Source: Candidatus Margulisiibacteriota bacterium (GTDB lineage: Bacteria > Margulisbacteria > Marinamargulisbacteria > DT-59). Taken from it: a stretch of 16,427 nt of DNA. This document shows, piece after piece, positions 1-16,427 of the stretch. Each line of letters begins with the position of its first letter. The stretch's first letter is position 1. The stretch covers positions 1 to 16,427 of the forward strand of contig JABSQL010000027.1 of the NCBI GenBank assembly GCA_013215865.1. The letters run 5' to 3'. Position numbers and translations under genes: made by a program. The notes below the pieces were generated by a model that ran no database searches, had not been told where the DNA came from, and saw only the letters and a program-made list of their open reading frames with translations.

Positions 1-658
1 CACTTATGGTAGACTGTGATCCTGTCGCATCATTTTGTAAGCCACCGCCTATAGTGGCGTAAGCATTGCCTGCTGAGTTATTACTGCCACCTGCTACAAC
101 AGACGCTAACCCAGTTGCTTTATTGGAAACACCACCCCCAACAGTAGAAGCACCGCCGGTACCTGCTAAATTAGAATTCCCACCACCTACAAATGATTCT
201 ACTCCTGAGGCTGTGTTTGAAATTCCACCCCCCACGGTTGATTTTAATCCTGTGGCATCATTGTTTAAGCCACCTGCTACTGTGGCATAATCATTTCCTG
301 CTAAACTTTGAAATCCGCCTGCCACAGTAGAATACGCTCCCGTGGCATCACTGTTATAGCCACCTGCAATTGTAGCTCCGGTGTCGCTTGCTATATTAAG
401 CTCACCACCACCTACCGAGGATGCGCTTCCTGAAGCTGTGTTAGCCGCACCACCACTCACAGTAGTAGATAGTGCCGTGGCATCATTGTCTATGCCACCG
501 CCAATTGTGGCATAAGTGCCACCAACACTGTTTATTGAATTATTCACGCCACCTCCTATCGTTGATCTGTATCCTGCGGCTATGTTAGAATTCCCTCCGC
601 CCACGGTTGATTCTGTGCCTGTCGCTGAATTATTGACCCCACCCCCAATCGTGGGATA
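1..658 (-). repeat. Repeat block C: at least 14 head repeats, truncated by window edge
   Basis: Starts at YPTIGGG (Y1383), 497 codons after block B, and contains about 14 complete units before the edge. The DNA at its head (645-697) is close to the heads of blocks B and A, sharing the 14-mer CCAATCGTGGGATA at 645, 2136 and 3618. Unlike A and B, it lacks the preceding DLGST/RWDEIY segment. Confidence 0.8.
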
Positions 659-3600
659 CGTACCCCCAATCGTTCCATTTGCACCTAAATTAATACTGCC
701 AGACACCGTTAACACATATGTTGAATTATTGAACTGAAAGTTCGTATCCCCCGCAATGGTGTTAGTTCCTGTCCAAAACGATACTTGATTCGCAACACCC
801 GATCCGGAGAGAGCACTGATATTAACTGACGCTGCACCCGTACCATCCTGATAATACAGGGCATTATCCGCTGCTGAAACAAACAGCTTTCCATATCCAG
901 AAGTGACTGACGGATTCTCTGATTGCTCATCTAAACTAATCACACCCTCCACCGTTAACTGTTCATTGGGATCATTTGTTCCCAAACCCACCTCAGGGTG
1001 TTGCACAATAAAGTTACGAGATGCTTGTGAGTCAAATGATAAGAATACCATCGGAATAACCGGATGCGGGGTACTAACCCCAAACACAATAGTCTCATCA
1101 TGTAACGCTCGGGCTTGATTACCCATTGCAAAGGAATAATCTCCTGATGCGGCGGACCCCTTTCCCGTTGCAAAGGCATAATCTCCTTTTACGACGTTGC
1201 CGTCTCCACCTGGGATGGTGGAATACGCTCCCGTAGCATTATTGCTATTACCACCACCCACTGTGGCGGAACTTGATCCCGCTGAATTGCTATCACCACC
1301 CGCAATAGTTGATGCGTATCCTGAAGCCGTATTATCATCCCCACCTCCTACTGCTGAATAAGTGTTTGTAGCGGCATTGTCACCCCCACCAGATATGGTA
1401 GTATAATTTGATGAAGCGAAATTGAATGATCCACCGCCTACAGCAGGACTTGCTCCAGCTGCTGTATTATCTCGCCCACCGGCAATAGTGGAAGAGGTTC
1501 CTGAAGCGATATTATCAACTCCACCTGAAATGACGGCATATAGGCCTGACATTGTATTTCTATATCCCCCTCCTATCGTACTATAATCAGCCGCAGCATC
1601 TGAAATATTATTTTCTCGCCCTCCTGAAATAGTTGTACTACCTGCTCCTGATGTAATATTATTCGTATATCCCCCGCCTATAGTGGAATTCGATCCATAG
1701 GTGGTATTCCATCGTCCGCCACTTATAGTAGCGCCTATCGATCCAACTGTATTTTCTTGTCCCCCTCCTACTGTCTTGTACCAATCCGTACCGACAGTGG
1801 CATTTCTACGCCCACCTCCAATTGTGTGATATGAATCTTCAGCAGAGTTATCATACCCGCCCCCGATAGTAGCATGGCTACCCCCGGATCCAGCATTATT
1901 AGAAAATCCACCCCCTACAAAGCTACTACCATAAGCCGTATTTGAATTTCCTCCTGCTACAGTACCCGAACTTGCCAACACCGTATTAGAAAGCCCTCCC
2001 CCAATCGTTGAATACACTGCCAAGGCTGTATTTGATAGTCCACCGCCCACAGTGGCATTTAGTGAAGAAGCGGTATTATCATTTCCACCCCCAACTGTGG
2101 CATAATCGGCATTTGCTGTATTGGATAGTCCACCACCAATCGTGGGATACGTTCCCGCAATCGTTCCATTAGCACCTAGATTTATATTTCCTGAAATCAC
2201 CAACGCATTTCCCACATTATCATATTTTAATACCACTTCAGCAGAACTGCTATCCCCAATATGGATACTTCCTGATGAGACATATATCTCATCCCATCTC
2301 GATGTGGTGCTTCCCAAATCATAGAGCACATCCTGGGCGGGTACGATGTTTCCCGTTACCGTTATATTCGCCGATATTCCCATTGCAAAACTGCTTTCAT
2401 CAAATATGAAGGCCTTATTTCCTGTCACGGACATATCTCCATCGAAATACGTGACTTGTCCCGCTTTTCCATTTCCAACAACACCCTGTGCGGAGGATTC
2501 AGACAGATTCACCGAAGGCACACTCGCCCCTTCTTGATAATATAAATCTCCATTTGCTGCTGAAACAAACAGCTTTCCATAACCCGCATTAGACGTTGGA
2601 TTTTCGGCTTGCTCTTCTAAACTGATAACACCCTCCACCGTTAACTGCTCATTGGGTGCTGCGGTTCCTAATCCTACCAATCCCTGCTGTACTATGAAGC
2701 TATTGATGGTTGTGGAAGTAAAGGCTGTACTCGTGCTATCTCCGAATGCGATGACGCCATCATGATCTGCATCAGAAGCTCTTCCTGCTGCGAGAGAATA
2801 ATCTCCTGCTGCGGTGTTAGACCGTCCGCCTGGGACTGTGGAAGCTGTTCCAGATGCAATATTTGCTGTTCCACCGGATATGGTTCCAAGCGTACTGGTA
2901 ACAGAGTTTAATTGTCCTCCGGCTATGACGGCATAGGAGCTTGCCATTGTATTTTTATATCCCCCTCCTATCGTACTATAATCACCATTAGCGTGTCTTA
3001 TGTTATTGGATACGCCTCCTGCAATAAATGAATTAGTTGCACCTGACCTAACATAATTGTCTCGTCCTCCTACAATAACTGTATAATCGGCAGCGGAGTT
3101 TGTATTTCTTAGCCCTCCCCCTATAAATGAATACCACCCACTTGTGTAATTAGTATCGCCACCACTAATTGTAGACCGGGTTGCCGCCGCAGTATTATAT
3201 TCTCCCCCTCCGATGGTAGTAAACGAAGATAGCGTCGTATTGCGATGTCCCCCGCCAATAAAAGAATACTGTGCTTGCGCTTCATTTCGATGCCCACCTA
3301 CGACTGCAGCATAACTGCTCAACTTGCCAGCTCTATTTAAAGTTCCACCGCCCACAAAGCTATGAGCTGAGTAGGTTATATTATTTTCTCCCCCTCCTAC
3401 GACACCGGTAGTTCCAGCAACATTGCTGTCTCCACCTCCAATAAACGCGTTATTACCTGAAGCGGTGTTATCTTCCCCACCGCCGACAAATGATTCTACG
3501 CCTGAGGCTGTGTTATCAAGTCCACCTCCCACAGTGGCATTCAGTGAAGAAGCCGTATTATCTTGCCCACCTCCCACAGTGGCATAGTTACCATTTGCTG

Positions 3601-9972: not shown

Positions 9973-10989
9973 TTACCTTAGCAATTGATTGGCGGATTCT
10001 TTATAGGTATTAAATACATCTAATACTTTCCCAGATTTCAGGGCCTTTTGCGCCTGAATAAACCCCTCTTCTATGGAAGGGGCCTGCCCAAAACAGGCAC
10101 TGGCTACACCTGCATTTAAGCATACAAGGGCATGCAATGTACCCTGTGGATCTTGATTTCGTAATAGTTTATAGAACAGGTCAATATTGTCTTCAGATCT
10201 ATTTCCAAAAACAGGGGGATTTCCACATTTCAAACCCAAGGATTTGGGATCAAATTGGGATTTGGAAATATAAGATGTCCCGACTTCCCAAATATCTGAA
10301 ACTCCATGAATAGATACATCATCCACCCCACCCGAACCCACCACAATGTACGCCCGTTTTCCGCCCAAACGTTGAAATGTGAGGGCCAGTTTTTCTGCAT
10401 TTTCATGGTTTGTAGTACCAATCACTTGTATAGGAACAGAAGCAGGGTTACATAAGGGACCTAGTAAATTAAAAATAGTACGTGTCTTTATTTGAGCACG
10501 CGCAGGCCCCACAAACCGCATGGCAGGATGATATTGCCTCGCAAACAAGAAACACAGCCCTGTCTTTTTAAATAACACTTCAGATATAGCAGGATCCACG
10601 TCAATGGGAATTCCCAACGCCTCTAAAAAGTCAAAACTACCATTGGCCATTTTAGACCCCCGATTGCCATGTTTCGCGATGGGAACCCCCATGGCCGCTA
10701 AAACAAAAGCAGCGGCAGAAGACACATTAAATCGGGCATTTCCTGACCCACCTGTCCCACATACGTCCATCGCGTCCGTATGAAGATGTATCGGCTTCAT
10801 ATGTGAACGGAGGACTTTGACAAAACCCACCATTTCATCCACCGTTTCCCCTTTTTCTTTGAGGGATATTAATAATAATTTTATATCCTCAACAGAAGAT
10901 GTTCCTTTTAAAATTTCTGACAAAACAGCTGCACTTTCTTCTTCAGTCAACTCTCCCTTGTCATTTAAACGTTGTAGATAGTGTTTCAA
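9973..10989 (-). CDS. trpD: Anthranilate phosphoribosyltransferase
   Basis: TrpD joins anthranilate to PRPP, the second committed step of tryptophan synthesis. The 338 residues are full length. The helical N-terminal domain is followed by the PRPP-binding loop DVCGTGGSGNARFNVS (75-90), where the common form is GTGGD. Then come AKHGNRG (105-111) and RTIFNLLGPLCNPA (170-183). The family Mg-binding Asp-Glu pair appears as D223-D224, a conservative Glu to Asp change. The start is TTG at 10989, overlapping the TGA of the upstream gene (TTGA). No later in-frame ATG would keep the first helix. It is an orphan here: no other trp gene lies in the window. A thymidine or pyrimidine phosphorylase relative is unlikely, given the KHGNR and LGPL motifs. 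Confidence 0.92.
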   Translation of the reverse strand: MKHYLQRLNDKGELTEEESAAVLSEILKGTSSVEDIKLLLISLKEKGETVDEMVGFVKVLRSHMKPIHLHTDAMDVCGTGGSGNARFNVSSAAAFVLAAMGVPIAKHGNRGSKMANGSFDFLEALGIPIDVDPAISEVLFKKTGLCFLFARQYHPAMRFVGPARAQIKTRTIFNLLGPLCNPASVPIQVIGTTNHENAEKLALTFQRLGGKRAYIVVGSGGVDDVSIHGVSDIWEVGTSYISKSQFDPKSLGLKCGNPPVFGNRSEDNIDLFYKLLRNQDPQGTLHALVCLNAGVASACFGQAPSIEEGFIQAQKALKSGKVLDVFNTYKESANQLLR

Positions 10990-11618
10990 GATGGTGTATC
11001 CGCCCCCTCTTGACCAAATAAACCCACTAAATCGAGGGGTTTAACGGTTTGGGCATTTTTGTTTTCATTCAATATTTCATCCAAAGATTTAATAAATTGA
11101 ACAAAGGCTGAAAAATAGGGAATAACCCGTCTATTTATTTCTTCTTTATTTCTGAGATGATGGTCCTCTAACTCGGCTTCAATATTGAGCAAATTTTCGG
11201 AAAGTGTTGTATAGACTGATAATACCTGATGAGAGGAATTTAATACTTGCGTCACCCGTTCTAGTGAGATGTAGGGTTTATATGATTCCGATAGCTCTAT
11301 AACATCAGGCAACTTGTCTATTTTTGTAAACGCGACTTCTGCATAACAATCAAATTGTTCAATGTAGCGTTCTTTGTCTTCATCTGTGTAGGATTCAATT
11401 TCTATAAATATAGGATACTTTTCTAGCCGTTGAATGGCCTTTTTAATCCCTCTGAAACCAAACGGCTTCCCTTTGACCATGATTAACTCTGGCTTTAGAA
11501 AGGGATGCTTTGCTGAAAACCGTTCTAGCAAAGTTTCTGAAACAGCGTTGGTAAGTTTCTCATAACTAACAATATAAAACGACTTTCGACACAACGATAA
11601 AATGGCATCATACATCAT
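10986..11618 (-). CDS. Hypothetical protein coupled to trpD
   Basis: A 210-residue soluble protein that I do not recognise. There is no signal peptide or membrane segment. The first ~105 residues look alpha/beta, with strands around ELIMVKG and YPIFIEIES and a basic patch (KGKPFGFRGIKKAIQRLEK, 49-67). The second half (about 115-190) looks helical and probably coiled (SENLLNIEAELEDHHLRNKEEINRR). The C-terminus is LVGLFGQEGADTPS. The gene is first in a three-gene unit and its stop overlaps the trpD start by 4 bp, so it may be linked to that operon by translation. The start is taken as ATG at 11618; a second ATG follows immediately. No Shine-Dalgarno is seen. I assign no function. Confidence 0.75.
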   Translation of the reverse strand: MMYDAILSLCRKSFYIVSYEKLTNAVSETLLERFSAKHPFLKPELIMVKGKPFGFRGIKKAIQRLEKYPIFIEIESYTDEDKERYIEQFDCYAEVAFTKIDKLPDVIELSESYKPYISLERVTQVLNSSHQVLSVYTTLSENLLNIEAELEDHHLRNKEEINRRVIPYFSAFVQFIKSLDEILNENKNAQTVKPLDLVGLFGQEGADTPS

Positions 11619-11675: not shown

Positions 11676-11703
11676 TAGACAATTCGGGTCATTTTCATAT
11701 ATT
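11676..11703 (+). promoter_or_regulatory. Candidate promoter of the PEPC-like gene
   Basis: TAGACA (11676-11681) and TATATT (11698-11703) are separated by 16 bp and each matches 5 of 6 consensus bases. Initiation near 11710 would leave a leader of about 32 nt carrying the Shine-Dalgarno site. It lies back-to-back with the promoter of the opposing operon. Confidence 0.5.
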
Positions 11704-11726: not shown

Positions 11727-11732
11727 AGGAGG
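11727..11732 (+). promoter_or_regulatory. Shine-Dalgarno site deciding the start of the PEPC-like gene
   Basis: A perfect AGGAGG lies 9 nt before the ATG at 11742. The longer frame could start at TTG 11718, but that would put this site inside the coding region, so 11742 is preferred. Confidence 0.85.
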
Positions 11733-11741
11733 AAACCACAC

Positions 11742-14700
11742 ATGCAGATATTGAAGATCGTATCCGTTCGCTCATATTCAGATTTAACCCGCTCTCAAAT
11801 ACCCATCAATTCTCTTGATGATGCCCTTGAATATATCTCTCAAATTAGTGGCACTAACCCTACCAAATCCTTGTCCCATTTCCCGCCCAACGGCTCGAGT
11901 TGTATCTTAGATCAATCAGGGGCCCTTAATAATCAAGTCATTGCTATGGGCCAAAAAGTGGTTGAGACCATTGAGGCATTGCGTTCTCCAGATCTCACAC
12001 AAGAATCTTTTGATGAACTAAAATCTAAATTAAATGACCTGATCACCCAGTTTTTTGATCTTGCAATCATGTATGCCTTCCTTCATGTCTATAAAGGCCC
12101 CAGTACCAAAGCTGTATTTGACCAAATCCGTTCTGAAGAAAATTTCTTTGGAGATAGCCCCAAACCTACTACGATATTTAAGAAGGTATTACTGAAGGGG
12201 AAAGATCAACTGAAAAATGCGATTCTGAAAAGGAAAAGAAAGTCACTTTCAGAGGGCATTCATTGCACGCCTCAAATACATACACTCCTCAAGGGACTGT
12301 CTCAAGATGAAACTACAAAAATCCGACAGAAATATCAAGTGATTCTCGAAACGTTCAGAAAACTGTCTCACCAGCTCTCAGATGTGCTGATCACTGAAAG
12401 CCTCCGTACGCATCCAAATCTTAAACAGAACAGATTTTCATTTGCACATACCCTGAATCTCATTCGTTCACATCAAAACACTCTCGCCTTAACACCACGA
12501 GATATATCTGAAATGATGCGCCAAGTGATTGTATCGACGAAACATCCCTGCGAATCGCTTCACCCTCAATTTTTGAACGCAATCTCATTAATCACAACCA
12601 TGTTTTTTGATAATCTACAGTATTTAATAACCAACAGACACGCCATTGAAGCCCTGTTTAAATTGGATCATTTGGAAATTAGAAAGCCAAAAGGTGAGGC
12701 ACAAGATTCCCACTTGAAAGATGTTCAAGATCGTATTACAAATTGGGACTCTAATGAAACCAGAGGTACAACCTTGTGCCAAAAGCATTTTTCGGAAGCA
12801 CAAGAAACAAAGCATAGTTTGAATCTCACAAATGAAGCATCACCTCGTAAAGCAGAGATAGGCATCAAAAGATCCAACTGGGCACTGGACAGTGACGGTG
12901 ATTATCTCGTGCAAAATGAATACTTGTTGCATATTACCCGAAACCAAATAGCTCAAGGAGCCGAAAATTATCGAAAAAGTCGTGAGTTGGAAATCATCAA
13001 TACAACCATTTTTCAGCTATTAAACGATCTCAGGAAAGAAATGACGGATCTTCAGCTGCCGTATCCTGAAATATTTGGATCAAAAATGATTTTCGCATGT
13101 CAAATGAATCGAACAGCCGTTCATATTAGTGCCACATTAGCCACTACCAATGCCACAAACGGAAAGGATGGATACACCCATTCAGACAGGTTTTTAGAGG
13201 ATATTGATGAACTGCTGAAAAATGCCAAACAACTCGCTTCGCTTTCTGACGCTTATAAGCCTGCATCCGAACTCATTTTACAGTTTAGAGAAACGGTGAG
13301 AATGGATGGTTTTGGCACCTGTTCTGGCCAGCACCGGCAAGAGGGTAAAATATTTCTCACTATTTTAAAGGAAATGTTGGGGCCTTACATGGATGAATGC
13401 GATGGCCCCCAACTGCTTACCCTATTTATTGACATATACAAGGCCCTAAAATCAGAAAATGCACAGATGCCGCAGCCCCTTCAGTCTCTTTTAGAAAGTG
13501 CAAACCCTCAGAACATTTTTGAATATGCACTCAAAAACCACCCCTTCTTTAAAGACGCCCCCTCTCTAACCAGTGAAAATTACACACACCACATACAACA
13601 AATCGACCAAGCCATTTGTCGTCAAGAAACAGAGTTTTTGAATAGTATATTAACGATTATCGATCACACAGCCATTGGCACCATTATTATTAGCCAAGTA
13701 GAAACGGCCTCCCAAATAATGGCTGCACAAATATTATTTCACCTCGCTGATTTAGAAAATGCAACCGTTGGCCCACTTGGAGAGAATCGACAGGCCCTTC
13801 TAAACCTCCCAACAGAAGTTGAAAAAATTGAAGAAAAACTTCAACCTCTGAAAGAGATTTTACCCGAACTTGAAAGAAGTCTTACAGAGTGTCTTTCCAC
13901 TACTACCCAGTTGGATTCTAGAGCCAGAAGCCTCAAACTATATCTGACTGTTACTGAATGGTTTGACAAACACCAGTCTGTATTGGAATTTCTATACCAG
14001 GCAGGATACAGTGATAACGGAAAGTTGGTCGGGGCAGTCGGGGCCAAAGAAGGGCTGAATGCTTGTATAAAACGCCTTTATGAGATTCTTAATAAACGTA
14101 TCCTAGACACCGTCTTGGAAGTAGCCGAGAAAGAATTGTACGAGACAGATTTGAGAAAAATCGAAGTCCTTTGTTCTCGACTTCAGGTGTTTCTAGGGGG
14201 TGGTACCAGCCCTGGCAGAAGTGGTGGGATTGTCAATTTCGGCGGCATACGGGAAGATTTTGCCTTGTTAATCACCCATATACTGGGTAAATATCTCCAT
14301 AATTTAATGTGGACTGCACAGGGAAATGGAAAAACGTTTAATCAACTGCACCCTAAAATTTGGGGCATGGTATTGGAACAGGTGTTATCCGCACAATCTC
14401 AGAGTATGATCGAATACTTACTCAATGGCGAAACCGCTAGCCCCATCCTAGATTCCCTAGGAAATGACCAAAAAGATATCATTGAAGACTTTATTTTTGG
14501 TACATTCTTGCACACTGAATATGATTTTCCGAACGATGAGGCACAACTTAAAAAACACTTTCTCGTATTTTTTGATCTCTTTTTGAACAACCAAACCCTT
14601 AAACGGGCCAAAGCAAGCTTAAGACCCAGCTCTAGACAGAAACCCGAAGACGCAGATGACAACCGGGCCATTGGGACCCAAGTCGCCCAACTTGCCACTT

Positions 14701-15203
14701 CTTTTAATTACACACTTATATTGCTAGATTTTAAATCGATCTTTACTGATTTTGATGGACCAAAAGGTGTTGCCAAGCAACTGGAACAAGATGAACATTT
14801 TAGATTGACCTTCGCAAGCATGTATTACCAATATAAATCCGTCGATTGGGAATATCTCACCTACCACTACCAATCTTTAATGAATGACCCTTTAATATCA
14901 GATGAAGATACGTTTATTATCTCGGCATATTTTGTGAAAATAATCGAATCATATGACAGACTAAAAAATCAAATTGACCGTATCCCAAATGTAACAAACT
15001 ATCTAGACAGGTCCAATCTTGAAAGAATTGAGCATGCAAAACAACACTGTCTGCCATGGCGAATAAAATTAACCAACTTAGGAATACGCCTAAGAGCTGA
15101 AAATAACATCTCAGGAGACAGAAAAGAAGAACGAGCTAAAATTATCGACGAGATTTACAAAACAAAAGGGGCCATTCAAGCCATCTTGGGCATTTCTGGT
15201 TAA
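11742..15203 (+). CDS. Highly divergent phosphoenolpyruvate carboxylase-like protein, probable pseudoenzyme
   Basis: 1153 residues, soluble, mostly helical, with no signal peptide. PEP carboxylases usually have 850-970. Motifs are colinear with the bacterial enzyme (E. coli counterparts from memory). STKHPCES with H268 matches TAHPTE (H138). NWALDSDGD (W380) matches SWMGGDRDGN. FGTCSGQ (524-530) matches FGL..LDIRQ, with the Arg (R396) replaced by G529. ISQVETASQ (650-658) matches VISMA..PSD. PLGEN (E681) matches PLFET. AGYSDNGK (754-761) keeps D758 and K761 of GYSDSxKD. FLGGGTSPGRSGG (817-829) matches FHGRGGSxGRGG: His579 becomes L818 and Arg581 becomes G820, but Arg587 stays as R826. TAQG (858-861) matches TEQGE. 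LRPSSR and NRAI keep R961 and R975, 14 apart as in R699/R713. The end is LGISG instead of MRNTG, losing the aspartate-binding Asn. Some catalytic residues persist and several are lost, so ordinary PEP carboxylation seems unlikely. The long intact frame argues against decay. Confidence 0.8.
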   Translation: MQILKIVSVRSYSDLTRSQIPINSLDDALEYISQISGTNPTKSLSHFPPNGSSCILDQSGALNNQVIAMGQKVVETIEALRSPDLTQESFDELKSKLNDLITQFFDLAIMYAFLHVYKGPSTKAVFDQIRSEENFFGDSPKPTTIFKKVLLKGKDQLKNAILKRKRKSLSEGIHCTPQIHTLLKGLSQDETTKIRQKYQVILETFRKLSHQLSDVLITESLRTHPNLKQNRFSFAHTLNLIRSHQNTLALTPRDISEMMRQVIVSTKHPCESLHPQFLNAISLITTMFFDNLQYLITNRHAIEALFKLDHLEIRKPKGEAQDSHLKDVQDRITNWDSNETRGTTLCQKHFSEAQETKHSLNLTNEASPRKAEIGIKRSNWALDSDGDYLVQNEYLLHITRNQIAQGAENYRKSRELEIINTTIFQLLNDLRKEMTDLQLPYPEIFGSKMIFACQMNRTAVHISATLATTNATNGKDGYTHSDRFLEDIDELLKNAKQLASLSDAYKPASELILQFRETVRMDGFGTCSGQHRQEGKIFLTILKEMLGPYMDECDGPQLLTLFIDIYKALKSENAQMPQPLQSLLESANPQNIFEYALKNHPFFKDAPSLTSENYTHHIQQIDQAICRQETEFLNSILTIIDHTAIGTIIISQVETASQIMAAQILFHLADLENATVGPLGENRQALLNLPTEVEKIEEKLQPLKEILPELERSLTECLSTTTQLDSRARSLKLYLTVTEWFDKHQSVLEFLYQAGYSDNGKLVGAVGAKEGLNACIKRLYEILNKRILDTVLEVAEKELYETDLRKIEVLCSRLQVFLGGGTSPGRSGGIVNFGGIREDFALLITHILGKYLHNLMWTAQGNGKTFNQLHPKIWGMVLEQVLSAQSQSMIEYLLNGETASPILDSLGNDQKDIIEDFIFGTFLHTEYDFPNDEAQLKKHFLVFFDLFLNNQTLKRAKASLRPSSRQKPEDADDNRAIGTQVAQLATSFNYTLILLDFKSIFTDFDGPKGVAKQLEQDEHFRLTFASMYYQYKSVDWEYLTYHYQSLMNDPLISDEDTFIISAYFVKIIESYDRLKNQIDRIPNVTNYLDRSNLERIEHAKQHCLPWRIKLTNLGIRLRAENNISGDRKEERAKIIDEIYKTKGAIQAILGISG

Positions 15204-15247: not shown

Positions 15248-16427
15248 ATGTTTACATTTAGAAAAGAAAAAGCGGATACATTTTTTAACACTTTTTTCCT
15301 TGTATGCATCTGTATTTTAGCGTTGGGAATTCCGTTGTTTTTCACCTCCCTTACCCGCTCTGTTTTTGAAGTCAATAAACTCATGCTCTTCCGAATCGTC
15401 ACCCTGATCATCATCGGGGGATGGTTCTTTAAATATATTTTATATCGCGCAAATGGCTTTGATAACCCACCCTCTAAAAGTGTGTCTATTTTGGGTTTTC
15501 GTTGGCTTAAAACAGGCTTTGAAATCCCTTTGCTTTTATGGTTTATTGCCAATATTATCTCCACCATCTTTTCAGAAAATATTCGCATCTCTATATTCGG
15601 GGCATATGACCGATGGGAAGGCCTTATCACCATTACCAACTACATCATACTGATTCTGATACTCACCAAGCTTGTGACGAATAACCGCCAACTTCAATGG
15701 ATATTTGGATTTGTCATGCTTGCTGCGGGGCTCTCCGCCCTTTATGGGGTATTTCAGAATCTCGGGCTAGACTTTATGCCCTGGAGTGTGGACCCCACTC
15801 ACCGGGTGTTTGCATGTATTAATAACCCTGTCCATTTTTGTGCGTATGTTGCCATGGTTGTTCCACTTGGTATGGGCTGGATTTATTACCTCACCGATAG
15901 AGAGCATAAAAATCCCCACAGTTCTCAAAAAGCCCATCTTTTAAAACTGGTCATTGTTGCCGCTACATCTTTGATCTATTACACCCAATTTTTATCTTAC
16001 TCACGCGCCACTTGGATGGGATTTATCGGGGCCATGACCTTGTTTTATATGTTTTCAGGGCGACTGATCCCTACTCAAAAGAGCCGGTTTTTAATGGCTG
16101 ATTTCTTTTTCACATGTGTCGCCATTGGAACCCTTTATATCCGATTTATATTCAGCGGAAACGAAATGGGACCCATTGTATCTACAACGATTATTGTCAT
16201 TTTAGCTATCTACTGCTTTTTTTCCTATATTCTAGTCGTTCTAGAAGGAAATTCAAAAAATTTAAAATTGGATATTACCCTCATTAAAACCACTCTCATT
16301 TTGTCCTTTGGTTATCTCATTTTCTTAGCTGACATTCCCTTTCTCATGGGAAATCTCCTCGCCGCTTTTAGAATAATAGGGGCCATTATACTTCTCCTAT
16401 TTGCCATATCTTTACCCCATAAATGTA
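15248..16427 (+). CDS. O-antigen ligase/polymerase (Wzy/WaaL-like) membrane protein, C-terminus outside window
   Basis: 393 codons are visible from ATG 15248 to the window edge with no stop. The protein is very hydrophobic, with around ten candidate membrane segments, for example 14-33, 45-65, 91-108, 127-143, 150-170, 194-213, 231-249, 253-270, 311-333 and 346-364. Two motifs mark the O-antigen ligase superfamily: SENIRISIFGAYDRWEGL (109-126), typical of members that often carry C-terminal TPR repeats, and LSYSRATWMGF (249-259), the conserved S-R-[AG]-[TA]-W element. Such proteins ligate or polymerise undecaprenyl-linked glycans at the outer face of the inner membrane, so surface glycan or glycoprotein assembly is likely. 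I cannot tell ligase from polymerase. It follows the PEPC-like gene by 44 bp and may have its own promoter. Confidence 0.85.
   Translation, partial: MFTFRKEKADTFFNTFFLVCICILALGIPLFFTSLTRSVFEVNKLMLFRIVTLIIIGGWFFKYILYRANGFDNPPSKSVSILGFRWLKTGFEIPLLLWFIANIISTIFSENIRISIFGAYDRWEGLITITNYIILILILTKLVTNNRQLQWIFGFVMLAAGLSALYGVFQNLGLDFMPWSVDPTHRVFACINNPVHFCAYVAMVVPLGMGWIYYLTDREHKNPHSSQKAHLLKLVIVAATSLIYYTQFLSYSRATWMGFIGAMTLFYMFSGRLIPTQKSRFLMADFFFTCVAIGTLYIRFIFSGNEMGPIVSTTIIVILAIYCFFSYILVVLEGNSKNLKLDITLIKTTLILSFGYLIFLADIPFLMGNLLAAFRIIGAIILLLFAISLPHKC

Follow-up and report, generated by a model that had tools for sequence, protein, structure and literature searches.

The PEP carboxylase-like gene

The stretch of DNA analysed here (contig JABSQL010000027.1 of a Candidatus Margulisiibacteriota bacterium, 16,427 nucleotides at its full length, hereafter the window) carries an open reading frame (ORF) of 1153 codons, unbroken from its ATG, whose product, P0001, proves on profile comparison to be genuinely, though very remotely, homologous to bacterial phosphoenolpyruvate (PEP) carboxylase (PEPC). 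The window is contig C190 of genome G000, an assembly of 2.2 Mb in 495 contigs with a completeness of 78.5%. The intact gene and the AGGAGG that precedes its start were correctly read in an earlier note made from the sequence alone, and the guanine-cytosine (GC) content of its three codon positions (0.49/0.34/0.38) is similar to that of the neighbouring genes. The coordinates of the gene, of its upstream signals and of the residues discussed below are collected in Table 1, where residues of P0001 are paired with those of Escherichia coli PEPC in E. coli numbering.

Table 1. Features of the window, with the PEPC-like gene first and other ORFs last
Feature	Position	Strand	Basis
PEPC-like gene, P0001 (clade A), 1153 aa	11742..15203	+	intact ORF; hhalign against 13 PEPCs, E 1.5e-11
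Promoter-like TAGACA-16-TATATT	11676..11703	+	weak: region holds 12 sites against 8.9 expected
AGGAGG, ribosome-binding-site-like, nine bases 5' of the ATG	11727..11732	+	read directly
H268 = H138, T-x-HP motif	12543..12545	+	hhalign, MAFFT
W380-D387 (WALDSDGD) = W248-N256 loop; W248, D252, D254, G255 kept; R253, N256 changed	12879..12902	+	hhalign
R532 = R396 (LDIRQ), kept	13335..13337	+	hhalign, MAFFT
E681 = E506	13782..13784	+	hhalign
E681-D758 stretch, with 40 more residues than its E. coli counterpart	13785..14012	+	hhalign
D758-K761 = D543 and K546	14013..14024	+	hhalign
L818-R826, LGGGTSPGR replacing HGRGGSIGR; H579 to L, R581 to G, R587 kept (R826)	14193..14219	+	hhalign
R961-R975 (RPSSRQKPEDADDNR) = R699 to R713	14622..14666	+	hhalign
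C-terminal GISG replacing RNTG	15189..15200	+	translated ORF
Repeat protein, at least 1604 aa	2..4813	-	extends past window edge
210-aa ORF, flanked by trpD and the PEPC-like gene	10986..11618	-	below-cut-off NCBIfam match
Membrane-protein-like ORF just 3' of the PEPC-like gene	15248..16426	+	below-cut-off IctB-family match; leaves window

Homology of P0001 to PEP carboxylase

Conventional searches do not place P0001 in any family. The Pfam, NCBIfam and PHROGs scans were all without a match, BLASTP against E. coli PEPC found similarity at chance level, and hmmscan at E 0.1 gave no match to the PEPC family PF00311, an outcome that the earlier note had named as grounds for rejecting its assignment. 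Profile-profile comparison reverses this outcome. A reference alignment of 13 PEPCs, formed by the E. coli enzyme and 12 sequences chosen among 40 of 123 matching plasmid records, was aligned by hhalign with the joint profile of P0001 and its closest relative, P0002, at E 1.3e-9 over 767 columns, and a rerun on E. coli columns gave a score of 103.4 (E 1.5e-11) over 757 colinear columns, joining residues 177-1116 of P0001 to 54-845 of E. coli PEPC (PDB 1fiy). Since this score lies far above those of 60 column shuffles (maximum 26.5) and of the reversed profile (21.0), the homology stands, and so does the ordered series of PEPC motifs described in the earlier note. The single sequences scored 89.4 (P0001) and 43.7 (P0002) against PEPC, and the identity of P0001 to PEPCs in a 20-row alignment, A5, is 16-19%. 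P0001 hence combines colinear, nearly full-length homology to bacterial- and plant-type PEPC with a level of divergence that falls below Pfam detection. The notion that there is no homology and that the motifs match by chance can draw on the empty family scans, on the lack of meaningful BLASTP similarity and on poor structure models, but it is scarcely credible given an alignment of this extent and score and the fact that MAFFT, independently of hhalign, pairs the same catalytic residues, E506 excepted.

P0002, a protein of 1033 aa from a eukaryote transcriptome set, was the sole relative of P0001 found among 5.8 billion proteins, in a search that scored the 7987 candidates sharing most words and a second one that scored 1426 candidates at E up to 10. 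The two proteins are 38-40% identical overall and 54% identical across the core (residues 740-1000). P0002 matched nothing in Pfam at thresholds up to E 10, a search with the two-row profile, seeded by words of its first 500 residues, recovered P0001 only, and no relatives of P0001 were found in the genome_contigs, viral_contigs, plasmids and phages collections. Clade A was found in one genome only, both among the 56 searched with P0001 and among the 74 searched with A5. This rarity, together with the great divergence of P0001, is what a decaying PEPC pseudogene might be expected to display. Such decay is nonetheless close to refuted by the 1153 open codons of P0001, by a P0002 that remains open over 1033 aa at this level of identity, by a codon-position GC content like that of the neighbouring genes, and by a ratio of nonsynonymous to synonymous substitution rates (dN/dS) of 0.19, measured on clade C (see below).

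Active-site residues kept and lost

In the hhalign residue map, P0001 retains the equivalents of H138, W248, D252, D254, G255, R396, E506, D543, K546, R587, R699, R703 and R713, and lacks R253, N256, H579 (L818) and R581 (G820). The last two belong to the HGRGG loop, which is regarded as diagnostic of PEPC, and both are invariant in 13 of 13 aligned PEPCs. P0002 carries L651 and L653 at these two positions and R659 at R587, which, with the same losses in the other clades described below, supports conservation of the substitutions. Further differences from bacterial-type PEPC are the conversion of the GGDRDGNP loop into ALDSDGDY, in which the D-x-D-G pattern persists, the altered C-terminal RNTG, about 130 additional residues upstream of the HP motif (H138), and a spacing of 77 residues between E681 and D758, against 37 in E. 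coli PEPC. K773 is replaced by Ser and R832 by Cys, and N881 lies beyond the alignment; we take these three to be the aspartate-inhibitor positions of PEPC. The substitutions in both loops and at the C-terminus and the insertion of about 40 residues had all been recognized in the earlier note, and its residue map agrees with that of hhalign at L818/G820/R826, D758/K761, R961/R975, H268 and E681. It failed at the Arg of LDIRQ, which it held to be replaced by Gly: R396 corresponds to R532 (LDIRQES in E. coli, SGQHRQEG in P0001), and all 20 rows of A5 carry Arg there. This column is one of 16 that are invariant across A5, among which are also the catalytic positions H138, D543, R587, R699 and R713.

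In the PEPC literature, E506 and D543 are the metal ligands, R396 and R713 (R532 and R975 in P0001) the Arg residues that hold the substrate phosphate, H138 (H268) the general-base His, and R581, absent from P0001, a further phosphate contact. A published review describes Mg2+ in PEPC as bound by one Glu and one Asp, and carboxyphosphate as deprotonated by a conserved, flexible-loop His (PMC10176493), and a Dictyostelium study names H138, H579 and R587 among the residues of E. coli PEPC that matter (PMC11832675). Loss of metal- and phosphate-binding residues would be expected of a PEPC pseudoenzyme, and E681, D758, R532 and R975 are all present. With every metal-ligand, phosphate-Arg and general-base position retained, the pseudoenzyme that the earlier note proposed as one possibility is not the preferred interpretation; P0001 may instead act on another substrate, as that note also suggested. 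A dead PEPC fold retained for regulation or structure would fit the loss of two loop residues that are invariant in aligned PEPCs, the extra residues before the HP motif and the very long branch on the stem of clade A (4.9 changes per column in a 20-row tree). It is an improbable account given that conservation at the active site is no lower than in the remaining PEPC-invariant columns (p 0.057 for the difference with H579 and R581 counted), and that H138, R396, D543, R587, R699 and R713 are invariant in 20 rows despite 16-19% identity.

Divergent clades in the same class

Searches covered 27 genomes of the window's class, 56 relatives and 74 genomes of the phylum; these genomes are incomplete, which limits the weight of absences. 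A PF00311 scan of the 56 genomes gave matches in six, two of them with canonical PEPCs and in a single genus (G015 and G018). The other four matches are weak and lie in open frames 881-909 codons long; their proteins score above the Pfam cut-off (24.7-34.5 bits against 22.4) and fall into two clades, B (G007 and G014, 46% identical) and C (G016 and G019, 77% identical). A search with the clade B profile added a third member in G008, truncated by the contig end and stopping before the loop, and a scan of the 74 phylum genomes with the archaeal-type PEPC model, PF14010, reached an 832-aa ORF in G013, clade D, which shares its genus with the carriers of canonical PEPC. In hhalign comparisons with PEPC, clade B scored 140.6 (maximum 27.7 in 15 shuffles) and clade C 85.6 (23.5 in 15 shuffles), while clade D was barely above its controls (26.3, with 20 shuffles reaching up to 23.7) and rose to 59.7 (24.6 in 15 shuffles) when aligned with A5. 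The matches of clades A to C with A5 are by construction, because A5 contains them; clade D was missed by the whole-genome A5 search and is the least certain of the four. A PEPC-related ORF is thus present in 9 of the 27 class genomes, and the remaining 47 phylum genomes had no A5 match at E 0.01 and no PF14010 match, an absence that is valid only at the sensitivity of A5, because A5 missed clade D.

The four clades share the same alteration of the diagnostic loop, the sequence of which is HGRGGSIGR in E. coli and, in clades A to D respectively, LGGGTSPGR, FGVGDSPLR, QGTGSGPMR and SGEGSHSAR. None of the four keeps H579 or R581, and each retains G580, G582 and R587 (by hhalign, excluding the G008 fragment). 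The alignment of clade D to A5 also retains R396, E506, D543, R699 and R713, with the HP motif lying outside the aligned part. Taken together, the alignments indicate at least three, and probably four, divergent PEPC-like clades in one uncultured bacterial class.

Some likeness extends to archaeal-type PEPC. The A5 profile matches the sequence of an archaeal-type PEPC structure, PDB 3odm, along 100 model positions (E 4.7e-6), and clade D has a sub-threshold PF14010 match (18.4 bits against a cut-off of 25). These short local matches suggest that P0001 and archaeal-type PEPC belong to one wider superfamily. P0001 differs from the archaeal type in having no PF14010 match and in being about twice as long as 3odm (560 aa); archaeal-type monomers are given as 55-60 kDa (PMC8100219).

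Selection and PEP metabolism

The clade C pair allows selection to be estimated. Of 851 codons, 205 differ synonymously and 186 differ in the amino acid encoded; the NG86 method yields a dN of 0.136 and a dS of 0.713 (ratio 0.19), and YN00 a dN of 0.131 and a dS of 0.897. Clade C is hence under purifying selection.

ATP-dependent PEP carboxykinase (ATP-PEPCK) occurs in 20 of the 27 class genomes, including 6 of 6 carriers of clades A, B or C, and was not found in the carriers of canonical PEPC (G015 and G018) or in the clade D genome, G013. The association is weak (Fisher p 0.036 for 6/6 against 0/2, and 0.083 with clade D counted as divergent) because ATP-PEPCK is common in the class, the clade D genome lacks it and the canonical genomes belong to one genus. 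In the genome of P0001 its gene lies in two pieces, on contigs C76 and C169, and is probably a single gene split by the assembly. No carrier has a GTP-dependent PEPCK, and pyruvate carboxylase (PF02436) occurs in two of the 27 class genomes, with G019 as the only one among carriers. The pattern is compatible with, and no proof of, a scenario in which PEPCK may release the PEPC-like protein from anaplerotic duty.

The main rival explanation is that P0001 is a genuine PEPC, converting PEP into oxaloacetate by way of carboxyphosphate, as usual, and that its loop has been redesigned to dispense with H579 and R581. It is rather unlikely, with several points in its favour. The equivalents of H138, R396, E506, D543, K546, R587, R699 and R713 are all present, the E. 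coli H579N variant reportedly retains part of its activity, and in its 78.5% complete genome no canonical ppc, a check suggested in the earlier note, nor any other PF00311, PF14010, GTP-PEPCK or PF02436 match was found. Against it stand the invariance of H579 and R581 in all 13 aligned PEPCs, the ATP-PEPCK encoded, in two contig pieces, by the same genome, and two statements of the Dictyostelium study, which cites H579 among the residues that E. coli PEPC needs for its activity to be normal and reports that the knockout was not rescued by a Dictyostelium PEPC with mutations at H154, H621 and R629 (PMC11832675).

Gene neighbourhood

The gene lies among ordinary bacterial genes (tsaD, rpoN, ispD, trpD and proC). 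The 210-aa ORF upstream of it had no Pfam or PHROGs match. The long ORF at the start of the window encodes a secreted-looking protein with GGGxxNTASG-type repeats, the sole Pfam signal of which is a weak beta-roll match and which presumably resembles an adhesin head or a tail fibre. No common neighbourhood was found among the clades in the stretches compared (the window against the four clade B and C loci and against G013, G015 and G018, and G015 and G018 against G013). In G016 (L026) the clade C gene adjoins gatA/gatB-like genes, and a WD40/Sel1 protein and a malic enzyme are encoded close by; the G019 locus (L027) matches it in ORF sizes and order. The clade D ORF (L044, positions 161-2659, minus strand) adjoins a gene that, by eye, is Der/EngA-GTPase-like.

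Discussion

The explanation that we favour, at about even odds, is that P0001 is an active, metal-dependent enzyme of the PEPC fold in which the partner, the substrate or the outcome has changed, and not the main oxaloacetate-forming enzyme of its host. It draws on the homology, on the residues kept and lost, on the selection acting on clade C and on the co-occurrence with PEPCK. P0001 descends from bacterial-type PEPC and has diverged strongly from it. Its E681 and D758 may bind Mg2+ or Mn2+, its R532 and R975 the substrate phosphate, and H268 may act as a base, whereas the HGRGG loop has been rebuilt without its His and Arg and the alignable aspartate-inhibitor positions are not kept. From these residues we infer metal binding, PEP binding, catalysis and an altered role: the ligand would be PEP or a close enol-phosphate, processed by PEPC-type phosphoryl-transfer and enolate chemistry with a changed partner, substrate or outcome, and oxaloacetate would probably be supplied otherwise, a role that ATP-PEPCK can take. 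The residues retained by P0001 presumably serve both stages of the PEPC reaction, and those lost sit on the glycine-rich loop of the active site, which is why an active, altered enzyme is favoured over a dead one. In the first of these stages the PEP phosphoryl group is transferred to bicarbonate, and in the second CO2 is released and then fixed onto the enolate (PMC8100219).

Several results weigh against this interpretation. On the one hand, the special preservation of the active site is only suggestive. Of the catalytic positions chosen, P0001 retains 8 of 8, while of the remaining PEPC-invariant columns it keeps 27 of 59 (Fisher p 0.004); the figures for clade B are 8 of 8 against 28 of 52 (p 0.012). 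Yet the list of eight was chosen without the lost H579 and R581. Once these two are added, the contrast weakens to 8/10 against 27/57 in clade A (p 0.057) and loses significance in clade B (8/10 against 28/50, p 0.14); in clade C it stands at 6/8 against 24/56 without them (p 0.09) and 6/10 against 24/54 with them (p 0.29). Clade C has Arg at K546 and has lost R699 according to hhalign, though not according to MAFFT, and clade D has Leu at K546. On the other hand, neither structure nor genomic context is of help. The AlphaFold2 models of P0001 have a low predicted local distance difference test score (pLDDT), 38.0 from the two-row alignment and 41.6 from five rows, probably because too few sequences are available, and are not usable; three of the five rows are PEPCs or PEPC pieces from IMG/VR, where later searches yielded no further loci, and that model is hence partly circular. 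Foldseek with the two-row model returned nothing at E <= 0.001, and the genomic context of P0001 offers no pointer to a substrate.

The descent of clades A, B and C from one divergent ancestor is possible, and their unity as a family is unproven, because they scarcely match each other: inter-clade hhalign scores are 24.3 for A-B (shuffle maximum 23.4), 28.1 for A-C (24.1) and 18.5 for B-C (26.4). Parallel loss of the loop residues after relaxed selection is the alternative to a single ancestor. A 20-row tree joined A and C with 83/68 support; it was not relied upon, given the long-branch warning issued by the program.

The broader proposal, that at least four PEPC-like clades in one class are united by the loss of H579 and R581 and by a new metal-dependent reaction with PEP or another enol-phosphate as its substrate, is put forward tentatively. 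No described PEPC-like family was found in listings of open-licence PMC papers. In RuBisCO-like proteins, which have an unrelated fold and serve here as an analogy only, a carboxylase fold has been reused after the loss of some carboxylase residues. If the proposal is true, the proteins described here would be the PEPC counterpart of that family, hosted by one uncultured class. As natural proteins that drop the loop His and Arg and keep most of the remaining active site, they provide ready-made experiments on the role of the loop, and P0001-like proteins may perform a reaction that has not yet been described.

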